A stretch of 28,247 bases of DNA, taken from Saccharothrix sp. NRRL B-16348 (GTDB taxonomy: Bacteria > Actinomycetota > Actinomycetes > Mycobacteriales > Pseudonocardiaceae). Every line of letters begins with the position of its first letter. Within the stretch, counting starts at the first letter, position 1. Shown piece after piece: positions 4,838 to 15,672 of the stretch. Location: contig NZ_LGED01000278.1 of the NCBI RefSeq assembly GCF_001280085.1, positions 1 to 28,247 on the forward strand, given 5' to 3'. Made by a program: the position numbers and the translations under genes. The notes below the pieces were generated by a model. The model did not search any database. It was not told the DNA's origin and worked only from the letters and a program-made list of their open reading frames with translations.

Positions 4838-6172
4838 CCGGGCTTCCTCGCCAATCCCGAAGGGCTGGCGCTGGGCAACGCGGTGCAAACCAACCTCGTT
4901 GCGGCGCAGTTTTGGACTTCGTGTCCTCCGCCCACCCGGTGTTTTTGTTGCGATCCTCGCCAGTCCCGGAGGGCTGGCGCTGGGTGCCGAGCACACCCAG
5001 CACCTCGGGGTTGTCGGAGTTGCGATCCTCGCCAGTCCCGGAGGGCTGGCGCTGGGCGCGGACAGCGCCTCGTCGGCGTGGTGCTCGCCGGCGTTGCGAT
5101 CCTCGCCAGTCCCGGAGGGCTGGCGCTGGGTACAGGTAGGCGAGGGTGCCCTCGGTCCACGTGAAGTTGCGATCCTCGCCAGTCCCGGAGGGCTGGCGCT
5201 GGCGGGCTGTTGGCCCACAGCTGCGCCAGGTCGACCAGGTTGCGATCCTCGCCAGTCCCGGAGGGCTGGCGCTGGGGGCCGGGTCGTCCACCCACTTGCC
5301 CGACGCCTTGTCGTTGCGATCCTCGCCAGTCCCGGAGGGCTGGCGCTGGCCCGAAGGGGTGGCTGCCCGCTCCCACCTCACCCACGAGTTGCGATTCTCG
5401 CCAGTCCCGGAGGGCTGGCGCTGGCGAAAGGCTTCCCCGTGGGCATCTTCGACGCCAAGTTGCGATCCTCGCCAGTCCCGGAGGGCTGGCGCTGGCGGTC
5501 TCGCACCGCCCGCACCAGCTGGGCGGCGAGTTGCGATCCTCGCCAGTCCCGGAGGGCTGGCGCTGGGTGCGAGCGGTGACCACGACGCCCTCGGTCGCCG
5601 GGTAGTTGCGATCCTCGCCAGTCCCGGAGGGCTGGCGCTGGCGGCCGGGGCGGGTGCCGGTCGACAGGGATCCGGGGGTTGCGATCCTCGCCAGTCCCGG
5701 AGGGCTGGCGCTGGCTGGCGGGAGGCGGCGATGCTGTGCGGGCAGGACGTTGCGATCCTCGCCAGTCCCGGAGGGCTGGCGCTGGCGTCCGAGGCGCAGC
5801 ACCTCCCGAACTAGTCAACGTTGCGATCCTCGCCAGTCCCGGAGGGCTGGCGCTGGTCGTCTCGCGCCTCAAGGCGGACTTCCAGGACATTCCGTTGCGA
5901 TCCTCGCCAGTCCCGGATGCGATCCTCGCCAGTCCCGGAGGGCTGGCGCTGGTCGACGACGGCGTCAACCCGGTCCGCCGCTACCGCAAGTTGCGATCCT
6001 CGCCAGTCCCGGAGGGCTGGCGCTGGATCGAGCAGACGGACTCCCCTGCGTTTCTGCTGGGGTTGCGATCCTCGCCAGTCCCGGAGGGCTGGCGCTGGAC
6101 AGTCCGGCGCGGCTGGACTTCAACGAGGCGTACCTGTTGCGATCCTCGCCAGTCCCGGAGGGCTGGCGCTGG
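4838..6172 (-). CRISPR. CRISPR array 1 (type I-C), 17 repeats plus a degenerate distal one
   Basis: A 37-nt repeat (+ strand: begins GTTGCGATCCTCGCC, ends GGGCTGGCGCTGG) starts at 4947, 5019, 5093, 5166, 5239, 5313, 5388, 5459, 5530, 5605, 5678, 5749, 5820, 5894, 5990, 6062 and 6136, with 16 spacers of 34-38 nt. The copy at 5388 has one C-to-T change. The unit at 5894-5952 is a fused partial-plus-full repeat without a spacer. A diverged copy lies at 4838-4874, followed by 72 nt of non-repeat sequence. Transcription is inferred to run leftward from a leader at 6173-6473: degenerate repeats are on the left, and on the - strand the hairpin is followed by AGGATCGCAAC, an 11-nt handle as made by Cas5d. 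Confidence 0.95.
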
Positions 6173-6473
6173 GCTGGGTGAGCAGCTCAAATACGAGATG
6201 AGCCGCGCACAGTGCGCCGACAATCTCATTGTTTGAGACGACACGCCGTTGCCGGCTTCGGAACCTCTCGGCGTGTCGTGACACGCATGATGTTCCGAAG
6301 CGCCTCGTCCGCCGGAACCTGGTGTGCGGGCTCTTCGGCTGACGGGTCCTGTCCTGCGTAATGGTATGAGCGGCGAGGTCCGACGACGGTTGCCGGTCTG
6401 GTGGAGTGTGCACGGCTGGCGGCGGGTTCGCTGGTGTCGATCGTGGTTGGTTCGGGGCGTGGCGTGTGCGGCT
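6173..6473 (-). promoter_or_regulatory. Leader of CRISPR array 1
   Basis: This 301-nt region lies between the last repeat and the stop of cas2 and has no gene. Bases 6235-6301 match 15605-15671 beside array 2 (about 56 of 67 identical, no gaps), at almost the same distance from the repeats (62 and 63 nt). The block contains two interleaved inverted repeats: ACGACACGCCG (6238-6248) with CGGCGTGTCGT (6269-6279), and CTTCGGAAC (6256-6264) with GTTCCGAAG (6292-6300). A smaller palindrome GCGTGTC-GT-GACACGC sits at 6271-6286. A weak -10-like TACCAT on the - strand lies at 6361-6366. A role in adaptation and pre-crRNA transcription is inferred. Confidence 0.7.
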
Positions 6474-6764
6474 TCAGATGATGAGTGGTTCCCGGTGTGC
6501 GGCGTCGGTGGCGGCTCCGAGGTGTTTGGCGGTGTCAAAGGTTCCCCGGTCGAGGTGGTAGATGCGGACCGAGTCGCGGCTGGGGTCGATGATGGCGAGA
6601 AGGCGTGCTTCGAGGGTGAGTCGTTGGCTTGGGGTGCAGACGACTTCGAAGACGGACTTCTGTACCCGGTGTCCTACGCCTTCGCAGGTCTTGGCGACTT
6701 GTCGGAGTCGTCGTTCGCCTTCCGGTGTGGTGGTGTCGACGTCGTAGGTGACGAGGAATTCCAT
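6474..6764 (-). CDS. cas2: CRISPR-associated endonuclease Cas2
   Basis: This is a 96-aa subunit of the Cas1-Cas2 integrase that inserts new spacers at the leader end of the arrays. It opens MEFLVTYDVDT, the ferredoxin-like first strand with the conserved Asp at position 8, and continues with GERRLRQVAKTCEGVGHRVQ and KSVFEV, the standard Cas2 helix and second strand. The length is normal for type I-C. The ATG at 6764 overlaps the cas1 TGA by one base (TGATG), so translation is probably coupled. It is the last gene of the cas operon and ends about 300 nt before array 1. Confidence 0.95.
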   Translation of the reverse strand: MEFLVTYDVDTTTPEGERRLRQVAKTCEGVGHRVQKSVFEVVCTPSQRLTLEARLLAIIDPSRDSVRIYHLDRGTFDTAKHLGAATDAAHREPLII

Positions 6765-7780
6765 CAGGTGGTCGTCCAGGGGTGGTAGGCGTCGGCGGTG
6801 CCGCGGAGGTGGCGGGCGAGCAGGCGTGCTTGGACCAGGGGTATGAGGGCGGCGGGGATGTCGCGGCCGAGGGTGGCGTGGGGCCAGGTGCGGTCGCGGG
6901 CCTTGCTCCAGTGTTCGAGGAACAGTCGGCGTCCGTCTTCTGTGAGTTGGACGGCGCCGCCTGGCAGGGTCTCGGTGTGTCGGTCGGTGATCTGTCCGCG
7001 GTTGAGCAGTGTGAGGACGAGACGGTCGACCAGGAGTGGGCGCAGTTCTTCCATGAGGTCGAGGGCGAGTGCGGGTTTGGCGGGTCGGATGCCGTGGAGG
7101 TAGCCGATGTAGGGGTCGAGCCCGACTTGTTCGAGGGCGCCGTGGACGGCGACGCGGAGCATGCCGTAGCCGAAGGACAGCAGGCAGTTGACGGGGTCGG
7201 TGGGTGGTCTTCGGGTTCGCCCGGTGGCGACGCCGGGGGCGAGTTGGTCGAGTCCTTGGAAGTAGTCGCGCGCAGCGCGGCCTTCGATGCCGAGTGCTTC
7301 GGCGAGGGTGGTGGCGTCGGCGAGTTGGGTGAGGGCGCCGGCATGGTTCTCGGCGATGTCGCGTAGGCGTGTCTGGCGGGTTCCGGTGGTGTCGCGGGCG
7401 GCGCGGAGCAGGAGTTGGCGGTAGTTGTGCAGTTTGCCCGCGACGAAGGTCTTGGCGAAGGCCAGGCGTGCTTCGGGATTGTCGTGGGTGCGGACCTGGG
7501 CTAGTCGCAGGTGCGGGTTCCCGGTGTGGGATCCGCTGGTGCGGGCCAGGAACCGGCCGTTGCGCGTGACCCAGGTGATGGTGCGGCCGTCGGCGGCGCA
7601 GCGGTGGACAAGGTCGTCGGTGAGGGAGACGCCGTTCCAGGCGACGATGTGGTCGAGTCGGATCAGCGGCAGCAGGTGTCGTCCGGGTTTGTCGGGATGT
7701 GCGATGCGCAGGGCGTCGCCGTCGAGGTGCAGGCTGGTTCCCGGTGTGGTGGCGAACAGGGTTCGGAGGAGTTCAGTCAC
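6764..7780 (-). CDS. cas1: CRISPR-associated integrase Cas1 (type I-C)
   Basis: This 338-aa protein is the catalytic subunit of spacer integration with Cas2. The N-terminal beta domain reads MTELLRTLFATTPGTSLHLD. The C-terminal helical domain contains the expected metal-binding residues: Glu166 in ALGIEGRAARDYF, His229 in YIGYLHG, and the acidic group 241-245 in LDLMEELRP. NCLLSFGYGML at 198-208 is also typical of the family. It overlaps cas4 by 8 nt at its start and cas2 by 1 nt at its end. All active-site residues are present, so it is probably functional. Its placement behind cas4 is the standard type I-C order. Confidence 0.96.
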   Translation of the reverse strand: MTELLRTLFATTPGTSLHLDGDALRIAHPDKPGRHLLPLIRLDHIVAWNGVSLTDDLVHRCAADGRTITWVTRNGRFLARTSGSHTGNPHLRLAQVRTHDNPEARLAFAKTFVAGKLHNYRQLLLRAARDTTGTRQTRLRDIAENHAGALTQLADATTLAEALGIEGRAARDYFQGLDQLAPGVATGRTRRPPTDPVNCLLSFGYGMLRVAVHGALEQVGLDPYIGYLHGIRPAKPALALDLMEELRPLLVDRLVLTLLNRGQITDRHTETLPGGAVQLTEDGRRLFLEHWSKARDRTWPHATLGRDIPAALIPLVQARLLARHLRGTADAYHPWTTT

Positions 7781-8408
7781 GCCAGTCTCCGTGGGGGCGC
7801 GGGGTGAACAGGTCGGGGTGTGGGGCTCGGGGTGTGTCGGGAAGACAGCCGGGTTTGAGTGAGCAGCGGACGCATCGCGTGTCGTTGACCGGTGGTGGGA
7901 GTGTGCCGCTGTCGAGCAGGGCGCGGACCGCGCGGGCGGTGTCGGCGACGCTGCGGGTCAGGTCGTCGTCGACGAGGACTTCGTGGCGGCGCCGGTCCCG
8001 TCCGGAGAAGACGACGCCGTACGGGATTGGTGCCTGGAACATTTCGCGCAGGCACAGGACTTGCGCGGCGACTTGCAGGTCGGCCGGTCCACCGGGGTGG
8101 TAGCGGCCGGACTTGTGTTCGACGGGTGTGGGTCCGTGGTCGGTGAACTGGACGGTGTCGCAGATGCCGTGCACGCCGATCGTGTCGCTCCACACCGGCA
8201 GGGAGTGCCAGACCTTTCGGCCCCGGCGGTCGTTCCGGGTTCCGAGGGTGTCGACCGCGGCGTGGGCGAGGTCGCCGCGGACTGTGTCGACATTGGATTC
8301 GAAGTAGCCGTCGACGTGGATCAGCGCGGCCTGCCGGGGGCAGTAGGCGTGGTGCTCCAAGGCGGAGATCGGAATGCTGCGGAGTGTGTCGGTCGGTGAG
8401 TCGTGCAC
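7773..8408 (-). CDS. cas4: Cas4 Fe-S exonuclease
   Basis: Cas4 trims prespacers and helps select the PAM during adaptation. The frame is open upstream into cas7, but GTG 8408, 11 nt after the cas7 stop, is the likely start, giving 211 aa. The four iron-sulfur cysteines are visible: Cys23 in HAYCPRQAAL, and Cys179, Cys182 and Cys188 in RCVRCSLKPGC. The RecB-type nuclease residues are Asp84 (GICDTVQF) and Glu97/Lys99 (PVEHKSGR), with a following LQVAAQVLC helix. No clear Shine-Dalgarno is seen, consistent with coupling to cas7. A start a few codons earlier, within cas7, cannot be excluded. Confidence 0.92.
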   Translation of the reverse strand: MHDSPTDTLRSIPISALEHHAYCPRQAALIHVDGYFESNVDTVRGDLAHAAVDTLGTRNDRRGRKVWHSLPVWSDTIGVHGICDTVQFTDHGPTPVEHKSGRYHPGGPADLQVAAQVLCLREMFQAPIPYGVVFSGRDRRRHEVLVDDDLTRSVADTARAVRALLDSGTLPPPVNDTRCVRCSLKPGCLPDTPRAPHPDLFTPRPHGDWRD

Positions 8409-8419
8409 GGCCGCGACGC

Positions 8420-9307
8420 TCAGGCGATGAGTTTGGTCAGGGTGATGCCGGCGGGCAGGCCGTCGTCCTCGACCGAGACGACGTAGTCGCCGAACCTGCG
8501 GGCCGGGGTGTCCGGGGTCGCGGCGGTGGCGGTGACGCGTTCGGTGAGGCGGTGGGCGGGTGCCGCGCCGAAGGCGTCGGAGTGGCTGAAGACGTAGAGG
8601 CCGCGGGCGGTGAGGGTGCCGCGGGTGGCGGAGCGGTCGTGGTCGAACATCATCTCCAGCGTGCGGTAGAACAGCTCGAGGTCCTTGGCGTCGACGCCGG
8701 TCTGGCCACCCCTGGTGGCGGAGTAGTAGATCTCGGCGCGGTAGAGGCCGTAGGGGACGGTCCACTTGCCGCCCATCTCGGTGGTCTCGCCCTTGTCGAT
8801 GTCTTCCTGCTTGGTCTGGGTGACTCGGGTGATGGCGTGGTCGGCGGGGAAGATCGGGTCGATGCTGCGGGCCATGCCGACCTGCATGGGTCCACGGACC
8901 TGGCCGAGGGCGCCGGTCTTGCCGACCGAGAGGACCGCGCCGAACAGGCGGATGTCGACGTAGCGGTCGGACAGCCAGCCACGGGCACGGTCGGCGTCCT
9001 CCTTGGTGATCTTGGTGCCGAGTTTGAGGCCGGTGGCCTCGTAGGAGGCTTCGAGGCGCGGGTTGAGGGCGTGTCCGGCCTGCACGAAGATCCCGTAGCG
9101 GGGGTCGTCGCCGGCGGCGAGGGCGAGGGTGTCGCGGATCTTGCGCTTGAGGGCGACGTCGGTGACCAGGCCCTGCCCGGTCTCGTCGTCGGTGCGGGGA
9201 CGGTTGCCGGCGTCGGGGTCGCCGTTGGGGTTGCCGTCGGTGACGTCGAACAGGAACACCATGTCGTGGCGGACGGTGGGGTCGAGGTGGGGCTGGGTGC
9301 CGCTCAT
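8420..9307 (-). CDS. cas7: Type I-C Cascade backbone protein Cas7 (Csd2)
   Basis: This 295-aa protein is the subunit present in several copies along the crRNA in the type I-C effector complex. Its N-terminus contains FLFDVTDGNPNGDPDAGN, the hallmark of the Csd2 family, followed by LVTDVALKRKIRDTLAL. Later segments such as LFGAVLSVGKTGALGQVRGP and ELFYRTLEMMFDHDRSATRG are also typical. The length is normal. ATG 9307 overlaps the cas8c stop in an ATGA arrangement. Intact; role assigned from family. Confidence 0.95.
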   Translation of the reverse strand: MSGTQPHLDPTVRHDMVFLFDVTDGNPNGDPDAGNRPRTDDETGQGLVTDVALKRKIRDTLALAAGDDPRYGIFVQAGHALNPRLEASYEATGLKLGTKITKEDADRARGWLSDRYVDIRLFGAVLSVGKTGALGQVRGPMQVGMARSIDPIFPADHAITRVTQTKQEDIDKGETTEMGGKWTVPYGLYRAEIYYSATRGGQTGVDAKDLELFYRTLEMMFDHDRSATRGTLTARGLYVFSHSDAFGAAPAHRLTERVTATAATPDTPARRFGDYVVSVEDDGLPAGITLTKLIA

Positions 9308-11118
9308 GCGGGGATCTCCTCAGCGGTGCTGGCGGGGGTCGTGGCGGTGTCGGTCGTGTGGTCGGCGGCGGTCGCCTCGGAGGAGGCGCGGTCGTCCGCC
9401 CGGCGACGCAGGGTGGCGAACCGGTGGGCCCGCTGGTGGTGGTAGCCGAGCAGGAACAGCGCCTGCTCGGCCGGTGCGGCGTGGTGGGGAATGCCGGTGC
9501 CGGCGTCGAGGAGTCCGAACAGTTCGTCGAGTTCGCGTCGGTGGTTGACGCCCGCTCCGGCGCGCCTGCCGCGGAACTTGCGCAGCCAGGCGTCGGCGAG
9601 TTTGCGGCCGGCGATCAGCGCGGAACGCGGGTTGGTCACCGCGCCGGAGAAGAAGCGGTTGGCGTAGGTGGTGTTGAGCTTGCCTTCGAAGGCGTCGTGT
9701 TGAACGGCGTCCAGCGCGGCGAACAGGCGACCGGCGACGTAGGCCGGCGTGGTGTTGGTCGGATCGAGTCCGGGCATCGATTTCTCCGAGGTGAAGGGCG
9801 AACGCATGAGGGCGAGGTGGATCAATGCCGCGCGTGGTGTGTCCAGGCGCCCGTCGGTGCGAACCCGGTGCAGCAGGTGTGTCAGCAGCGACGGCGGCAG
9901 CGGAATCCCGCGCAGCGCCGCGCGCAGCAGGTCGCGCTGCACCCCGTTCGGGCGGTCTGCGCCCTTGGCTCCGACGAACGCGTACCGCTTCTCGGCGCGC
10001 AGCCAGCGTCCGGTGACACGGACGAGGCGTTCCAGCGAATGCGCCGAGGGCTCCTCCGGGTGCAGGGTCACCATCTCCAGGTCCCCGAACCAGGCGGCGA
10101 CGTTCTCCTCCACCGCAGACAGCGGCATCTCGAGCCAGTCCCGAACCATGACACGGGCGACGTTGCCTCCCACGGTGAGAGCGCAGAACTTGGCGCTGTC
10201 CACCGTGGATGATCGACGTCCCGAGCGCACGGCACGGATGAGCTCCGTGACCTGTCGGGGGTCGGCGTCGAGGATCAGTTTCATCGGGTTGCGTTCGACC
10301 GGTTCGGTGACCCACCACGCCAACCGGCTGTCCTGGCCTCCGAAGGAGGTCGTGTCCTGGGAGCTGAGCACCCGGACCAGTCCCGCGGACAGTCCTTCGC
10401 CGCAGGTGACGCAGATCGGGGAGCAGTCCAGCTGGGTGGTGAGGTCGTAGCCGAACACGCGCTCGTTGACGCTGACCAGCGCGGCGTCGTTCGACGCGCC
10501 GGGGACCAGTCGTGCGGGCACCTTGCCCGGCAGTGTGTCCAGCAGCGGGCCGACCGCGCCGCACACCAGGCACAGCCCTTCCCTTCCCCCGCCCTTGCGT
10601 CGGGCCACCTCCGCCGCCCAGAACGACGGCACCGAAGGCGCGCGGTAGGCGGGCGTGCCCTCGACAGTGATCAACACCCGCTGCTTGGACGCCACGGCGG
10701 GGTCCTGGACCAGCCGGTTCGATTCGCCCGAGTTGAAGAACAGGGACACGGCGCGCGCGATCGGGTCATCGCGGCCTTCGGGGCTGTCGGCCCACCGCCT
10801 CGTCAGGTCGACGAACGCCTGGTGGCACTGCTCGACCCGACGCGGCTTACTGTCGGCATCGGCCCATCCAAGGACGTACTGCACGTCGTCGGCAGCGAGG
10901 TTGGGCGCCACACCCACGGTGCGGACGACAGCCGGAACAACGTGCTCGGCGCCTCGCTGCCGTCCGGCGGCGTCCGGGAACACCAGGGTTTCCAGCCCTG
11001 TGCCGGCGACGGTGCCGTCGGAGGTGAGGCGCAGTTCCAGGTCGAACCGCAGTGCGCGGTGGAACGGCTTTGCCGAGGGGTCCTGTGCGGCGTGGTCGAC
11101 CAGTCGTCTGACCAGCAT
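9304..11118 (-). CDS. cas8c: Type I-C Cascade large subunit Cas8c (Csd1)
   Basis: This is the large subunit that recognises the PAM and positions target DNA. The frame is open far upstream into cas5, but the true start is ATG 11118, whose A is shared with the cas5 stop (TGATG), giving 604 aa, the usual Cas8c size. It begins MLVRRLVDHAAQ and contains DDVQYVLGWADADSKP, HQAFVDLTRRWAD, a Cys-rich LCLVCGAVGPLLDTLP segment with a later ICVTCGEG (possibly a zinc site), and a conserved helical C-terminus with AYVAGRLFAALDAVQ and NRFFSGAVTNPR. No breaks are seen. The Pro/Ala/Thr-rich last 25 residues are probably disordered. Confidence 0.93.
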   Translation of the reverse strand: MLVRRLVDHAAQDPSAKPFHRALRFDLELRLTSDGTVAGTGLETLVFPDAAGRQRGAEHVVPAVVRTVGVAPNLAADDVQYVLGWADADSKPRRVEQCHQAFVDLTRRWADSPEGRDDPIARAVSLFFNSGESNRLVQDPAVASKQRVLITVEGTPAYRAPSVPSFWAAEVARRKGGGREGLCLVCGAVGPLLDTLPGKVPARLVPGASNDAALVSVNERVFGYDLTTQLDCSPICVTCGEGLSAGLVRVLSSQDTTSFGGQDSRLAWWVTEPVERNPMKLILDADPRQVTELIRAVRSGRRSSTVDSAKFCALTVGGNVARVMVRDWLEMPLSAVEENVAAWFGDLEMVTLHPEEPSAHSLERLVRVTGRWLRAEKRYAFVGAKGADRPNGVQRDLLRAALRGIPLPPSLLTHLLHRVRTDGRLDTPRAALIHLALMRSPFTSEKSMPGLDPTNTTPAYVAGRLFAALDAVQHDAFEGKLNTTYANRFFSGAVTNPRSALIAGRKLADAWLRKFRGRRAGAGVNHRRELDELFGLLDAGTGIPHHAAPAEQALFLLGYHHQRAHRFATLRRRADDRASSEATAADHTTDTATTPASTAEEIPA

Positions 11119-11780
11119 CAGGCGGCTCCGGTCGCGGTGATGCCCTGCTCGGGCACGTGCATGACCCCGCCGGCGACTTCGGCGTGGAACCAGGTGAACG
11201 ACGGTGGCGTGGTGGAGTGGTCGACCGAGTGCAGCATCAGCCCCAGCTTCTCCGTGACCGGATACGCGGGTCGGTCGTCGGGATCGCCGAAGTAGGCGCT
11301 GAACTCCCGCACGCCCAGGTAGGGCTGGGAGAAGCAACTGCCGCGGGTGACACGGCGGCGGAACTGGTCGCGGTAGGCAGCCTCGGGCTTGTCCGACCGG
11401 TCGCCGGGCACGGCGTGGGCGTGGATGCGGTAGGCCACGTCGCGCAGGCACACGGCGTTGCGCTGCACCCGGTTGGCGACGGTGTCCAGTCGGCGGCGCC
11501 CCGAGGCGGCGTCGGCCAACGACGCCAAGTCCGTGGTCTCGTTGCGGCGCTGCGTGAACTGCTTGATCTCCGACAACACCTCGATAGCCACCACCTGCCA
11601 CCGGAACTGCGGCTTCCAGTAGATCGCCTCCAACACACCGACCGCGGCCGACGGCGTCATCACCGGGTAGGACACCCGTTCGACCTTCAACTCCGGGCGC
11701 GTGAACAACGCCGCATCGCCCCACACCTGCACCACCACCGGCGGCGCGCCCGACACCGACTTGCGCAGATCAACACTCAC
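11118..11780 (-). CDS. cas5c: Type I-C crRNA-processing endoribonuclease Cas5 (Cas5d)
   Basis: In type I-C, Cas5 replaces Cas6: it cuts each repeat below its hairpin and stays on the 5' handle. Two adjacent GTG codons (11783, 11780) are possible starts; the second gives a GTGA overlap with the cas3 stop and 220 aa. The text fits Cas5d: VQVWGDAALFTRPELKVERV, then YPVMTPSAAVGVLEAIYWKP, and near the C-terminus FRRRVTRGSCFSQPYLGVRE with EFSAYF. Absence of any cas6 in the locus agrees with this processing role. The repeats carry a hairpin followed by exactly 11 nt on the - strand, matching known Cas5d products. Confidence 0.94.
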   Translation of the reverse strand: MSVDLRKSVSGAPPVVVQVWGDAALFTRPELKVERVSYPVMTPSAAVGVLEAIYWKPQFRWQVVAIEVLSEIKQFTQRRNETTDLASLADAASGRRRLDTVANRVQRNAVCLRDVAYRIHAHAVPGDRSDKPEAAYRDQFRRRVTRGSCFSQPYLGVREFSAYFGDPDDRPAYPVTEKLGLMLHSVDHSTTPPSFTWFHAEVAGGVMHVPEQGITATGAA

Positions 11781-14020
11781 CACACCGTGTCCTCTCCGAT
11801 CGCTTCCTCGTCCACCCCGACGTGCACGTCGTACCCGCCCTGCCACTCCCACAGGTCCTCATGCCCGGCGATCACCGGCTTGCACAACGCCCGCACGTGC
11901 GGCGCTGTCGCCACCGCGCGGGGCAGCGACACCATGTGGCCGCGCAACTCCCGCAACACCGCGCCCAACGGCCCCGACCCCGTCCGCAACCGCTCGACCA
12001 GTTCGGCGGCCCTCGCCTCCGGGTCGTACTCGGTCACGATCACCGACACCGGGTCCTCGTCGATCATGCGGAACGCCAACCCGCGATCGCGCTTCCCGCC
12101 ACCGCCGTCGCGCTCCGGGCCGTCCGCGACGGCCTCGAAGTCCAACTCCATACGACTGGCCTGGATCACCGCGCCACGCTCGGCCTCGTCGACGTTCAAC
12201 CCGGTGTAGAGGCTGCGGTAGTACCGGTCGAGCAGAGCGGGATCGTCCGGATCCCGTCCCGGTCCGAAGATCCCGAGCGTCTTGGACACCCCCGCCCGGT
12301 AGAATCTCGGCACCGGCGCGTCGGAGGCGTCGAAGACCACGACCCGCCCCAAGCCTGGCAGTCTGCCTTCCCGGTTGGCCCGTCCCGCCGCCTGCTGCAG
12401 CGACTCCGCCGGGGCCAGCGCGCGGAACACCACGGGGAAGTCCACGTCCACACCGGCCTCGATGAGCTGGGTCGACACCACGAGCACCGGCTCTCCGTCG
12501 TCCAGCAACCCCCGTATCCGGGTCAAGGCCGTCTCGCGGTGTCGCGGGCACATCCGGGTCGACAGGTGCACCACCTCGGCTGCCGGCGCCTGCTCGGCCA
12601 CCATCCGGAACAACCGGCGGGCCTGGCCCACGGTGTTGACGATCACCAACGCCTGCCGCTCCCGCGCCACCTGCTCCGCGATCTGCGCGAGCGTCGGCTG
12701 AGGGTCGACCTGCCACTCGTAACGCACCCGTCGCAGCCGGGTGAACAACTCCACCGGCGCGTCGACCAGCGGCTTGATGTCCAACGAATCCCACACCCGC
12801 AGGTGCTCGAAGCTCGGCTGCGTCGCCGACGCCAGCAGCACCGTGGTGCCGAAGTGCCGCGTCAGCACCTTCAACGCGTCCAGGATCGGCACCAGCAACG
12901 ACATCGGCAGCGCCTGCACCTCGTCCAAGACCACCACCGCGTTCGCGAGCCGGTGAAGCTTGCGCGACCGCGCCGGCCTGCGCCCGAACAGCGAGTCGAA
13001 CAACTGCACCGTCGTGGTCACCACGAACGGCGAGTCCCAGTTCTCCGCCGCCAACCGCAGACGCCGATCGTCCAACTCGGCGTTCGAGTGGTGCTCCAGC
13101 ACCACCTCGTCACCCAGTAGATCCCGATACACCCCCGCGTTCTGCTGCGTAATCGTCGTGAACGGCACCGCCACGACAACCCGGGCCTTGCCGTGCTCGG
13201 CCGCGTGATGCAACGCGAACCCCGCCGCGGTCATCGTCTTCCCCGACCCAGTCGGCGCCGGAAGCCGATACACCCCAGGCTCCCCCACCGCCCGCCGAAC
13301 CACGTCCTCGTACAGGGCCGCCCGAACCCTGTCCACATCGGACACCTCACGACCATCGCCACGCTCGGCCAACAGCGCCACACGGTTGGCCTCGAACCTG
13401 CGGACAAGCCCACCCATGTCAGCGGGAGGCGCCACGCGCGGCGCGGCAAGCCCGTGCGCGTGAGCCGCCGTGTCGAGATGGTCGGCGTCCACCAACGCCG
13501 AGAACACCATCCGGACACCCATCTCCCCCACCATCGGCGACTCACCCCACGCCTCGGGCAACAACGAAGGCCCGTCGGCCAACGCACTCGCCTCGGGAAC
13601 CACCGCCAGGAACCGCCGCAACGTCTCCCGGTCTCCCGGCTCCGGGGTCAACGCCGCGAGCGATCGCACACGACCGAGCCCACCGTGATGCCCCGACACG
13701 GCCATCGCCGCCGCGAGCGCACGGTCGCGCACCAGCAACGCACCCACCCGCTTGTGGTCGATACCGACCCTCTCGCCGGTCGCCGCCACGCGCTGCAGCT
13801 TGGACTGCCACTCCGCCGAACACTTCCCGGCGTCATGAACAAGACCCAACGCCCACGCCAGATCAGCGGCACCGAACGACACCGCAAAACTGCGGGCCAA
13901 TCGCGCAGTCGAACGAACGTGCTCCGCCAACGCATGCCATTGACCGGTGACCGCACTGGGGCTGTGAGCCCACACGTCGAAACCCTTCACATCGCCGTCC
14001 CCCGACGAACGACGTGACAC
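11777..14020 (-). CDS. cas3: CRISPR-associated helicase-nuclease Cas3
   Basis: This 747-aa protein is the HD-nuclease/superfamily 2 helicase that degrades target DNA once Cascade has bound. The N-terminal HD domain shows His34, the His62-Asp63 pair in LVHDAGK, His89, and His111-His112 in SGHHGG. Helicase motifs follow in order: motif I PAPTGSGKT (around 254-262), motif II VVLDEVQALP (DEVQ at 366-369), SAT at 398-400, and motif VI QQAAGRANREGR. All key residues are present. The GTG at 14020 is used; another GTG lies 10 codons in. No Shine-Dalgarno is obvious. It is the first gene of the operon, so the region at 14021-14230 should contain the cas promoter. Confidence 0.95.
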   Translation of the reverse strand: MSRRSSGDGDVKGFDVWAHSPSAVTGQWHALAEHVRSTARLARSFAVSFGAADLAWALGLVHDAGKCSAEWQSKLQRVAATGERVGIDHKRVGALLVRDRALAAAMAVSGHHGGLGRVRSLAALTPEPGDRETLRRFLAVVPEASALADGPSLLPEAWGESPMVGEMGVRMVFSALVDADHLDTAAHAHGLAAPRVAPPADMGGLVRRFEANRVALLAERGDGREVSDVDRVRAALYEDVVRRAVGEPGVYRLPAPTGSGKTMTAAGFALHHAAEHGKARVVVAVPFTTITQQNAGVYRDLLGDEVVLEHHSNAELDDRRLRLAAENWDSPFVVTTTVQLFDSLFGRRPARSRKLHRLANAVVVLDEVQALPMSLLVPILDALKVLTRHFGTTVLLASATQPSFEHLRVWDSLDIKPLVDAPVELFTRLRRVRYEWQVDPQPTLAQIAEQVARERQALVIVNTVGQARRLFRMVAEQAPAAEVVHLSTRMCPRHRETALTRIRGLLDDGEPVLVVSTQLIEAGVDVDFPVVFRALAPAESLQQAAGRANREGRLPGLGRVVVFDASDAPVPRFYRAGVSKTLGIFGPGRDPDDPALLDRYYRSLYTGLNVDEAERGAVIQASRMELDFEAVADGPERDGGGGKRDRGLAFRMIDEDPVSVIVTEYDPEARAAELVERLRTGSGPLGAVLRELRGHMVSLPRAVATAPHVRALCKPVIAGHEDLWEWQGGYDVHVGVDEEAIGEDTVW

Positions 14021-14169: not shown

Positions 14170-14205
14170 GTTGCAACCCTCGCCGCCCCGAAGGAGCGAC
14201 GCAAC
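14170..14205 (-). repeat. Solitary CRISPR-repeat-like element upstream of cas3
   Basis: A single 36-nt element begins GTTGCAACCCTCGCCGCCCC and ends GGAGCGACGCAAC on the + strand. Its first half aligns with the array repeats (shared GTTGC, CCTCGCC and CCCG at matching positions); on the - strand it ends GGCGAGGGTTGCAAC versus GGCGAGGATCGCAAC in the arrays. Its second half differs. The ends GTTGC/GCAAC are inverted repeats. No second copy is seen within 80 nt on either side. It may be a remnant of an old array or a repeat-based regulatory RNA. Confidence 0.45.
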
Positions 14206-14641: not shown

Positions 14642-14705
14642 GGCGTTCACGCCTTCGCGCGGCACAGCCCGAACAGCTCAACCGCGTCCGCAGGATCGGA
14701 AGTCT

Positions 14706-15541
14706 CCCACCGTGTCTTCACCAGACCGGAGGCTGGCGCTGTCTGCTTCCCTGAACCGCCGGAAGTGCGCGACAGTGCGGTGTTGCGATCCCCCGCCAGC
14801 CCGGAGGACTGACGCTGCCGCCCTCCTCGACCACCGCGCCGTCGGTGATCCGGTTGTGATCCTCGCCAGTCCCGGAGGGCTGGCGCTGCGACGTCGCGGT
14901 TCAACGCTGTCGGTTCGTGGGAGCTGTTGCGATCCTCGCCAGGCCCGGAGGGCTGGCGCTGCAAGGCGTTGACCGTCATCTCGGTGGCTTCGTCACAGTT
15001 GCGATCCTCGCCAGGCCGGGAGGGCTGGCGCTGCGATCCGGCCGAAGCGGATCCTGTGCGAGTACTTCCCGTTGCGATCCTCGCCAGCCCGGGAGGGCTG
15101 GCGCTGCCCCTTCGGCGGCGAGGGCGGCGGTGCGGCGCTCGGAGTTGCGATCCTCGCCAGCCCGGGAGGGCTGGCGCTGCAGTAGTCAGTTCCGGGCGTC
15201 GGCGCCGTCAGGATGTTGCGATCCTCGCCAGCCCGGGAGGGCTGGCGCTCCGTGCACGAGGGTCCCGCCCACGTAGACCTGCAACCGGTTGCGATCCTCG
15301 CCAGCCCGGGAGGGCTGGCGCTCCTTCTCCTCGGGGACCGGACGCCCTTCGTCGTTGTCGTTGCGATCCTCGCCAGCCCGGGAGGGCTGGCGCTCCTTCT
15401 TCGTGGACCGCCTGGGGCGCGTGTGGCGCTGTGTTGCGATCCTCGCCAGCCCGGGAGGCTGGCGCTCCGTAGGCGATGTAAGTGATGGTGCTGACCGACG
15501 CGGTGTTGCGATCCTCGCCAGCCCGGGAGGGCTGGCGCTCC
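14706..15541 (-). CRISPR. CRISPR array 2 (type I-C), 11 repeats plus a degenerate distal one
   Basis: Repeats start at 14782, 14853, 14925, 14998, 15071, 15144, 15215, 15288, 15360, 15433 and 15505, with spacers of 34-36 nt. The mature repeat begins GTTGCGATCCTCGCC on the + strand and contains a perfect 9-bp palindrome CGCCAGCCC / GGGCTGGCG around GGGA. The left-most repeats are degenerate (14782 has several changes; a fragment lies near 14706-14742), and copies change stepwise toward the right, so the leader is on the right and transcription is leftward. The copy at 15433 lacks one G. From 15215 on, the repeat ends CTCC instead of CTGC. There are no cas genes of its own; the single upstream cas set presumably serves both arrays. 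Confidence 0.94.
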
Positions 15542-15672
15542 CCTGCATCAACAGCCTAAACACACGACCCACCACCTCAACGAACACATCAACTTCCACC
15601 AGGCGAGACGACACGCCGCCATCGACTTCGGACCCTCCCGGCGTGTCACGACACGCATGAGGTTCCGAACCA
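15542..15672 (-). promoter_or_regulatory. Leader of CRISPR array 2
   Basis: The block 15605-15671 matches the leader of array 1 without gaps. ACGACACGCCG lies at 15608-15618, CTTCGGACC at 15626-15634, CGGCGTGTC at 15639-15647 and GTTCCGAA at 15662-15669, with the same spacing as in array 1. The central palindrome is kept as GCGTGTC-AC-GACACGC. The 63 nt directly next to the last repeat are unlike the matching 62 nt of array 1. Confidence 0.65.

Follow-up and report, generated by a model that had tools for sequence, protein, structure and literature searches.

A conserved compound leader element of CRISPR arrays in an actinobacterial family, a candidate DNA signal for spacer integration

The type I-C locus and its two leaders

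The window (the whole stretch of DNA that was analysed, 28,247 nt) contains a minus-strand type I-C operon in the order cas3-cas5-cas8c-cas7-cas4-cas1-cas2, with a CRISPR array on each side (Table 1). In both arrays the repeats are degenerate at the low-coordinate end, which places the leaders at the high end, and the crRNA is transcribed on the minus strand. Two irregularities accompany this layout. At 5894-5953 in array 1, a truncated repeat is joined to an almost complete one, giving a spacing of 96 instead of the usual ~73, and a degenerate repeat-like stretch (GTTGCAACCCTCGCCGCCCCGAAGGAGCGACGCAAC) at 14170-14205, upstream of cas3, is perhaps an array remnant.

Both leaders carry a block of ~66 bp, 85% identical between them and located 67-68 nt from the first repeat of its array. 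A preliminary description of these blocks had listed four arms in the order A-B-A'-B', with identical offsets of 18, 31 and 54 from the start of A in both leaders; this proved exact when the coordinates were rechecked, and the palindrome GCGTGTC-NN-GACACGC was likewise found intact in array 2, where the A' arm is imperfect. The B arms of array 2 (CTTCGGACC and GTTCCGAAC) pair at 7 of 9 positions only, a feature absent from that description. The window has a single match to the pattern B-N20..30-B', and none of 100 shuffles has any. The arms are as described, but their interleaving is one projection only, since a further box, A'', pairs with A' nested inside B/B'.

A BLAST search of the draft genome (10.9 Mb, 278 contigs) with 81 bp of the array 1 leader returned the query itself (E 5e-36), the array 2 block (E 7e-14, 85%), and the same palindromic block on the opposite strand (E 0.0014), with no further copies at E < 0.41. 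The preliminary description had named wide occurrence of the block away from arrays as a refutation; this was not seen, and the two copies of this genome both lie at arrays.

Table 1. Positions of the cas genes, CRISPR arrays and leader features in the window
Feature	Position	Strand	Remarks
Degenerate repeat	near 4840		Trailer end of array 1
CRISPR array 1, clean repeats	4947..6172	-	Repeats of 37 nt; crRNA strand -
Leader-repeat junction dyad, array 1	6173..6186	-	GCTGGGTGAGCAGC (GCTG-N6-CAGC)
Linker, array 1 leader	6187..6237	.	Length fixed, sequence little conserved
Box A, array 1	6238..6248	+	Core GACACGCC at 6240-6247, 67 nt from repeat
Box B, array 1	6256..6264	+	Core TTCGGAAC
Box A', array 1	6269..6279	-	CGGCGTGTCGT, inverted copy of A
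Box A'', array 1	6280..6286	+	GACACGC, conserved part CACGC; inner partner of A'
Box B', array 1	6292..6300	-	GTTCCGAAG, inverted copy of B; conservation ends just past B'
cas2 (6535-6788) and cas1c (6764-7780)	6535..7780	-	
cas4, cas7, cas8c, cas5, cas3	7773..14020	-	Type I-C operon
CRISPR array 2	14705..15541	-	Repeats degenerate at low end
Leader-repeat junction motif, array 2	15542..15555	-	CCTGCATCAACAGC (CCTG..CAGC)
Box A, array 2	15608..15618	+	Core 68 nt from repeat
Box B, array 2	15626..15634	+	CTTCGGACC, one change
Box A', array 2	15639..15649	-	9/11 match
Box B', array 2	15662..15670	-	GTTCCGAAC

Anatomy and conservation of the leader element

The consensus was taken from an alignment of 114 copies, the elements kept for model R2, which exclude identical copies and 13 repeat-less, eight second-strand, five tandem and two odd matches. 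It consists of box A (GACACGCC), 8-9 free bases, and then a nested imperfect dyad, TTCGGAACC-N5-GCGTG-TCGNN-CACGC-N4-GGTTCCGAA, whose inner halves are A' and the following GACACGC, and whose outer halves are B and B'. The alignment has 38 columns with more than 1 bit of information, a figure flattered by the choice of copies by similarity. Information drops to ~0.1 bit immediately after B', the outer flank being near random. The linker that separates box A from the repeat has a nearly random sequence in the long spacing class defined below and shows some conservation in the short class, which is the narrower one; its only signal is an A/T-richer patch ~16-19 nt from the repeat.

Immediately next to the repeat lies a second motif, CCTG-N6-CAGG, of which 84 of 100 leaders preserve five or all six fixed bases. 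The mean match is 5.48, compared with 3.06 at random linker positions, and in 92 of the 100 the best NCTG-N6-CAGN match lies directly at the repeat. The end bases of the 84 good matches are C..G in 60, C..C in 14, G..C in 8 and G..G in none, a matching of the two ends (Fisher 9e-6) whose statistic ignores relatedness.

Distribution among genomes

BLAST gave a match at E <= 0.1 in 123 of 390 genomes of the family, many of these trivial, while model R1, a sequence-only model built from 26 array-side copies, matched at E <= 0.01 in 116 of the 390, weak chance matches included. Loci were taken for all listed matches at E <= 1e-5 plus some weaker ones, and all loci were then rescored. Of 145 sequence-distinct matches, 117, from 48 genomes in 20 genera, have a CRISPR repeat next to their A side; adjacency was called by a script plus manual reading of the flanks, and one of the 117 (L067) was judged from a masked stretch plus the junction motif. 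The remainder comprises 13 matches without a repeat, eight matches to the palindrome on the other strand, five tandem copies and two odd cases. At 40 bits or more, 71 matches have a repeat and 4 do not, and the leader element is thus nearly confined to arrays. Two of the 13 repeat-less matches (L014 and L127) have flanks that appear transposase-like by eye, and another (L024) keeps a junction-like motif and has no repeats.

In a named genome collection, an exact pattern scan found 32 matches, distributed over 29 stretches. Of these matches 29 are leader copies, found in Actinokineospora, Goodfellowiella, Actinopolyspora, Lentzea, Saccharothrix, Solihabitans, Kutzneria, Halopolyspora and a record named Nocardia; a multi-copy array was detected by script for 23 of them, and the array of the other six is cut, masked, or represented by a single or degenerate repeat. 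The other three matches, in an Acidobacteria MAG, Geodermatophilus and an Alphaproteobacteria MAG, have no box A, B' or repeats. Across the class, 394 genomes searched with a stricter filter yielded convincing matches only in the genome of the window and in one other (G735), and 35 genomes of the family of the latter added nothing firm. Weak matches in several genomes of one genus, g25 (E ~1e-4, model positions 3-55), resemble coding sequence by eye (L142) and were dropped.

Spacing to the repeat and the Cas1c tree

The distance between box A and a fixed base of the repeat was measured in 100 leaders, a count that omits 14 of the 114 elements which have no CGATC anchor or have degenerate repeats. 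The leaders fall into two classes. In the short class (37 leaders, 14 genomes, six genera) the distance is 56-59 nt, with 35 leaders at 57 or 58, and the repeats end in CCAC in 36 of 37; in the long class (63 leaders, 28 genomes, 14 genera) it is 65-70 nt, with 54 leaders at 67 or 68. None of the 100 leaders has an intermediate distance. In a tree of Cas1c from 28 loci, one branch (99/97) has the 13 labelled short-class sequences on one side and 13 long-class sequences on the other, and the sequence from G358, unlabelled on the tree and with a distance of 57, falls with the short-class group. The split of the two classes by one Cas1c branch points to a single 10-bp step, or about one helical turn. 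The distance to the leader-repeat junction is therefore fixed and helically phased, but the case for phasing draws on few independent changes, the Cas1 tree showing a single event. The preliminary description had named a lack of conserved spacing in other leaders as a refutation; spacing proved to be conserved.

Co-occurrence with Cas1 and presence beside other system types

Cas1c scores 327 bits or more in 28 genomes, of which 27 carry the element (E <= 0.01); 17 of the 28 fall below NCBI's 385-bit cut-off, and 10 of the 27 had supplied sequences to the model. In the single exception, G316, cas2 lies 245 bp from the contig end. Where the only Cas1 matches are of 200-300 bits, mostly long frames as in Cas4-Cas1 fusions, five of 24 genomes carry the element, by a hand tally that leaves out the Cas1c fragments in G009 and G016. 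Well-kept elements are also present in two genomes with effector genes and undetected Cas1 (G078 and G244), and in five with neither Cas1 nor cas7c detected (G011, G221, G182, G008 and G341). Recent loss of Cas1 from such genomes is possible.

The element is not specific to type I-C, as divergent copies with long spacing occur in type III-B and III-D loci. In G220, such copies lie beside type III-B (Cmr) genes, 20-30 kb from a non-I-C Cas1, with box A at 67, 67, 67 and 66 (four copies measured of five). In G735, core copies flank type III-D genes (Cas10/RAMP/Csx19); box A is not recognisable, both leaders place box B at 87, which falls within the 84-89 of the long class, and the genome yielded no Cas1.

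Proposed role in spacer integration

The preliminary description had offered two functions for the block, an adaptation signal replacing the IHF site of other systems or a leader RNA switch. The first is the best reading, because the shared leader element is near-confined to arrays and its spacing to the repeat is strictly kept; the element is, however, found beyond type I-C arrays. We infer that the block is probably a conserved leader signal acting as double-stranded DNA, which would provide a docking or bending site for spacer integration in place of IHF. The fixed distance over a variable linker, the one-turn step, the junction dyad and the co-occurrence with Cas1c all fit such a site.

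By this mechanism, CRISPR arrays of this actinobacterial family would have a leader signal in two parts, with the block as the upstream one and the junction dyad CCTG-N6-CAGG marking the integration site. The upstream element, composed of box A and a two-fold-symmetric B-A'-A''-B' site, would be bound by a dimeric protein, and this may be the integrase, Cas1-Cas2(-Cas4), or a DNA-bending factor of the host. Bending of the ~50-bp linker would allow the upstream and junction sites to face one complex, which would direct new spacers to the leader end, a task that IHF and the upstream motif share in E. coli. A more specific version can be put forward tentatively, in which a dedicated actinobacterial host protein would bind the compound dyad and bend the leader for type I-C and III arrays alike, as IHF does in E. 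coli, making the leader code common to unrelated Cas1 lineages.

Several observations weigh against a docking site. The step between spacing classes is a single event, the element persists where Cas1 is undetected (G078, G244, G735 and others), and five genomes of the Actinopolyspora group have a copy without box A near cas3. In addition, the type I-C complex of Bacillus halodurans formed in vitro on a target whose leader portion was only 10 bp long (PMC6519985).

The persistence of the element in some genomes without detected Cas1 makes a role in transcription, by a regulator or a dual-use factor, a serious rival, though a less likely one. The element would then be the operator of a transcription factor controlling pre-crRNA, and in some genomes also cas3, possibly helping Cas1 as Csa3a does in Sulfolobus; Csa3a binds both a distal leader motif and a cas promoter (PMC9456107). 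The A-less copies near cas3 in the Actinopolyspora group suit an operator. They lie 67 bp upstream of cas3 in all three loci measured, with a B/B' dyad that is perfect in G052 and has one mismatch in G054 and G055, and five genomes of the group contain an A-less tandem copy ~200 bp from the leader copy (L037, L061, L065, L025 and L091). More widely, the core element is present 42-158 bp upstream of the inferred cas3 start in 9 of 19 I-C loci, mostly as the leader of the neighbouring array, but in the other 10, the window included, the 450 bp upstream of cas3 are free of core elements (a further locus, L206, was too short and was excluded). Furthermore, a fixed distance to the repeat is not required of an operator, and promoter-like conserved sequence is absent from the long-class linker and from the region beyond B'. 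Positions 6100-6550 of the window contain no promoters or terminators in a consensus scan of the standard types, and no ECF-like promoter spacing was seen by eye. Retention in genomes that have effector genes and no detected Cas1 accords with an operator, but was dropped as proof of a transcription role, since arrays without Cas1 and cas7c keep the element too.

The second proposal of the preliminary description, that the arms form alternative hairpins or a pseudoknot in the leader transcript, received little support and is improbable. RNA hairpins are possible: four of six leader RNAs, folded as the crRNA strand, gave z-scores of -3.4 to -4.4 against shuffles (array 1: -4.1), and both hairpin forms occur, with nested B/B' in four of the six folds and an A/A' stem in two, the minimum-energy fold of the array 1 leader being the nested hairpin (A'/A'' inside B/B'). 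However, array 2 and L115 folded weakly (z -0.6 and -1.5, respectively). Across the 114 copies the arms pair in 85.8% of cells, compared with 23-44% when slid, but shuffled partners pair in 84.9%; the observed value was reached by 9 of 500 shuffles, a slight excess that relatedness alone can give. The covariation score was reached by 13 of 500 partner shuffles, and the number of pairs changed on both sides by 60 of 500. Corrected mutual information in 74 sequences of <85% identity was at most 0.08 across the 23 arm pairs, of which two B pairs ranked 95th and 127th and the other 21 ranked 466th or lower among ~2280 column pairs. Conserved pairing of the A/A' and B/B' arms was thus not demonstrated by covariation, and the bases are kept individually, as in protein-binding DNA.

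That the element is now a functionless ancestral block inherited along with the arrays is very improbable: arrays without detected cas1 or cas7c still hold it, but its 38 informative columns are retained next to a long-class linker and an outer flank that are near random.

Relation to known leaders

The integration signal proposed here has partial counterparts in several systems. In the E. coli type I-E leader, an IHF site at -9 to -35 and an upstream element at -50 to -55 that contacts Cas1-Cas2 are described (PMC10011333). That leader and the present one both combine a junction sequence with a distant upstream site at a set distance, the bending that would link them being only proposed here. 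The sequences are unrelated, and the upstream site in the present leaders is a compound, dyadic site of ~66 bp, located farther away (about -58/-68 to -119/-129) and occurring with type I-C and III systems. The type I-A leader of Sulfolobus islandicus has a proximal stem-loop preferred by Cas1 and a distal motif at -143 to -94 bound by Csa3a (PMC9456107). It resembles the present leaders in its two-part organization, with an inverted repeat at the repeat and a distal motif at similar distances, but is archaeal and unrelated in sequence; no csa3 was found among the seven cas proteins of the window that were scanned. The type II-A leader-anchoring sequence, also named there (PMC9456107), is a short motif at the leader end adjoining the repeat; the junction motif here differs from it in being a dyad and in having a second element far upstream. 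The specificity of leader motifs for system type and taxon is stated in a further paper (PMC12814883).

The leader element bears on how integrases locate the leader end in bacteria without IHF. It offers a precise site (boxes, distance and 10-bp step), suitable as bait for a binding protein, in a group some of whose genomes contain numerous arrays, and its sequence model recognises leaders, and hence the direction of arrays, in this actinobacterial family. The motif is not named in the titles or abstract openings of the literature searched. To judge by their titles, Santiago-Frangos (2021) reportedly surveyed CRISPR leader motifs and their phasing, phased motifs being said to be a recognised idea, and Buyukyoruk (2025) reportedly surveyed diverse CRISPR leader motifs; either may list the motif.

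Genomes with unusual arrays

Several loci carry the element in unusual surroundings. In the genome G201, 13 element matches are scattered across many contigs, the majority accompanied by a second repeat class (GTTGCGATCCCTTGCGGGG...); one I-C operon was seen in this genome, whose arrays may be fed in trans. In G062, an I-C operon (L206) gave no match to cas4 and retains cas1 only as its final 36 residues; cas2 and the leaders remain. Two loci of G052 (L096 and L098) contain an I-C leader back to back with an array of repeats that look like type I-E (CCATCCCCGCGCCTGCGGGGAGCAC), a unit present in near-identical copies at several sites of the genome, and L097 and L100 have lost the I-C array and retain the I-E-like side. 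Repeats of I-E-like appearance also abut, or lie ~190 bp from, a leader element of the I-C type in G184 (L134 and L220) and G201 (L070), and in G184 the last of these repeats runs into the leader element.
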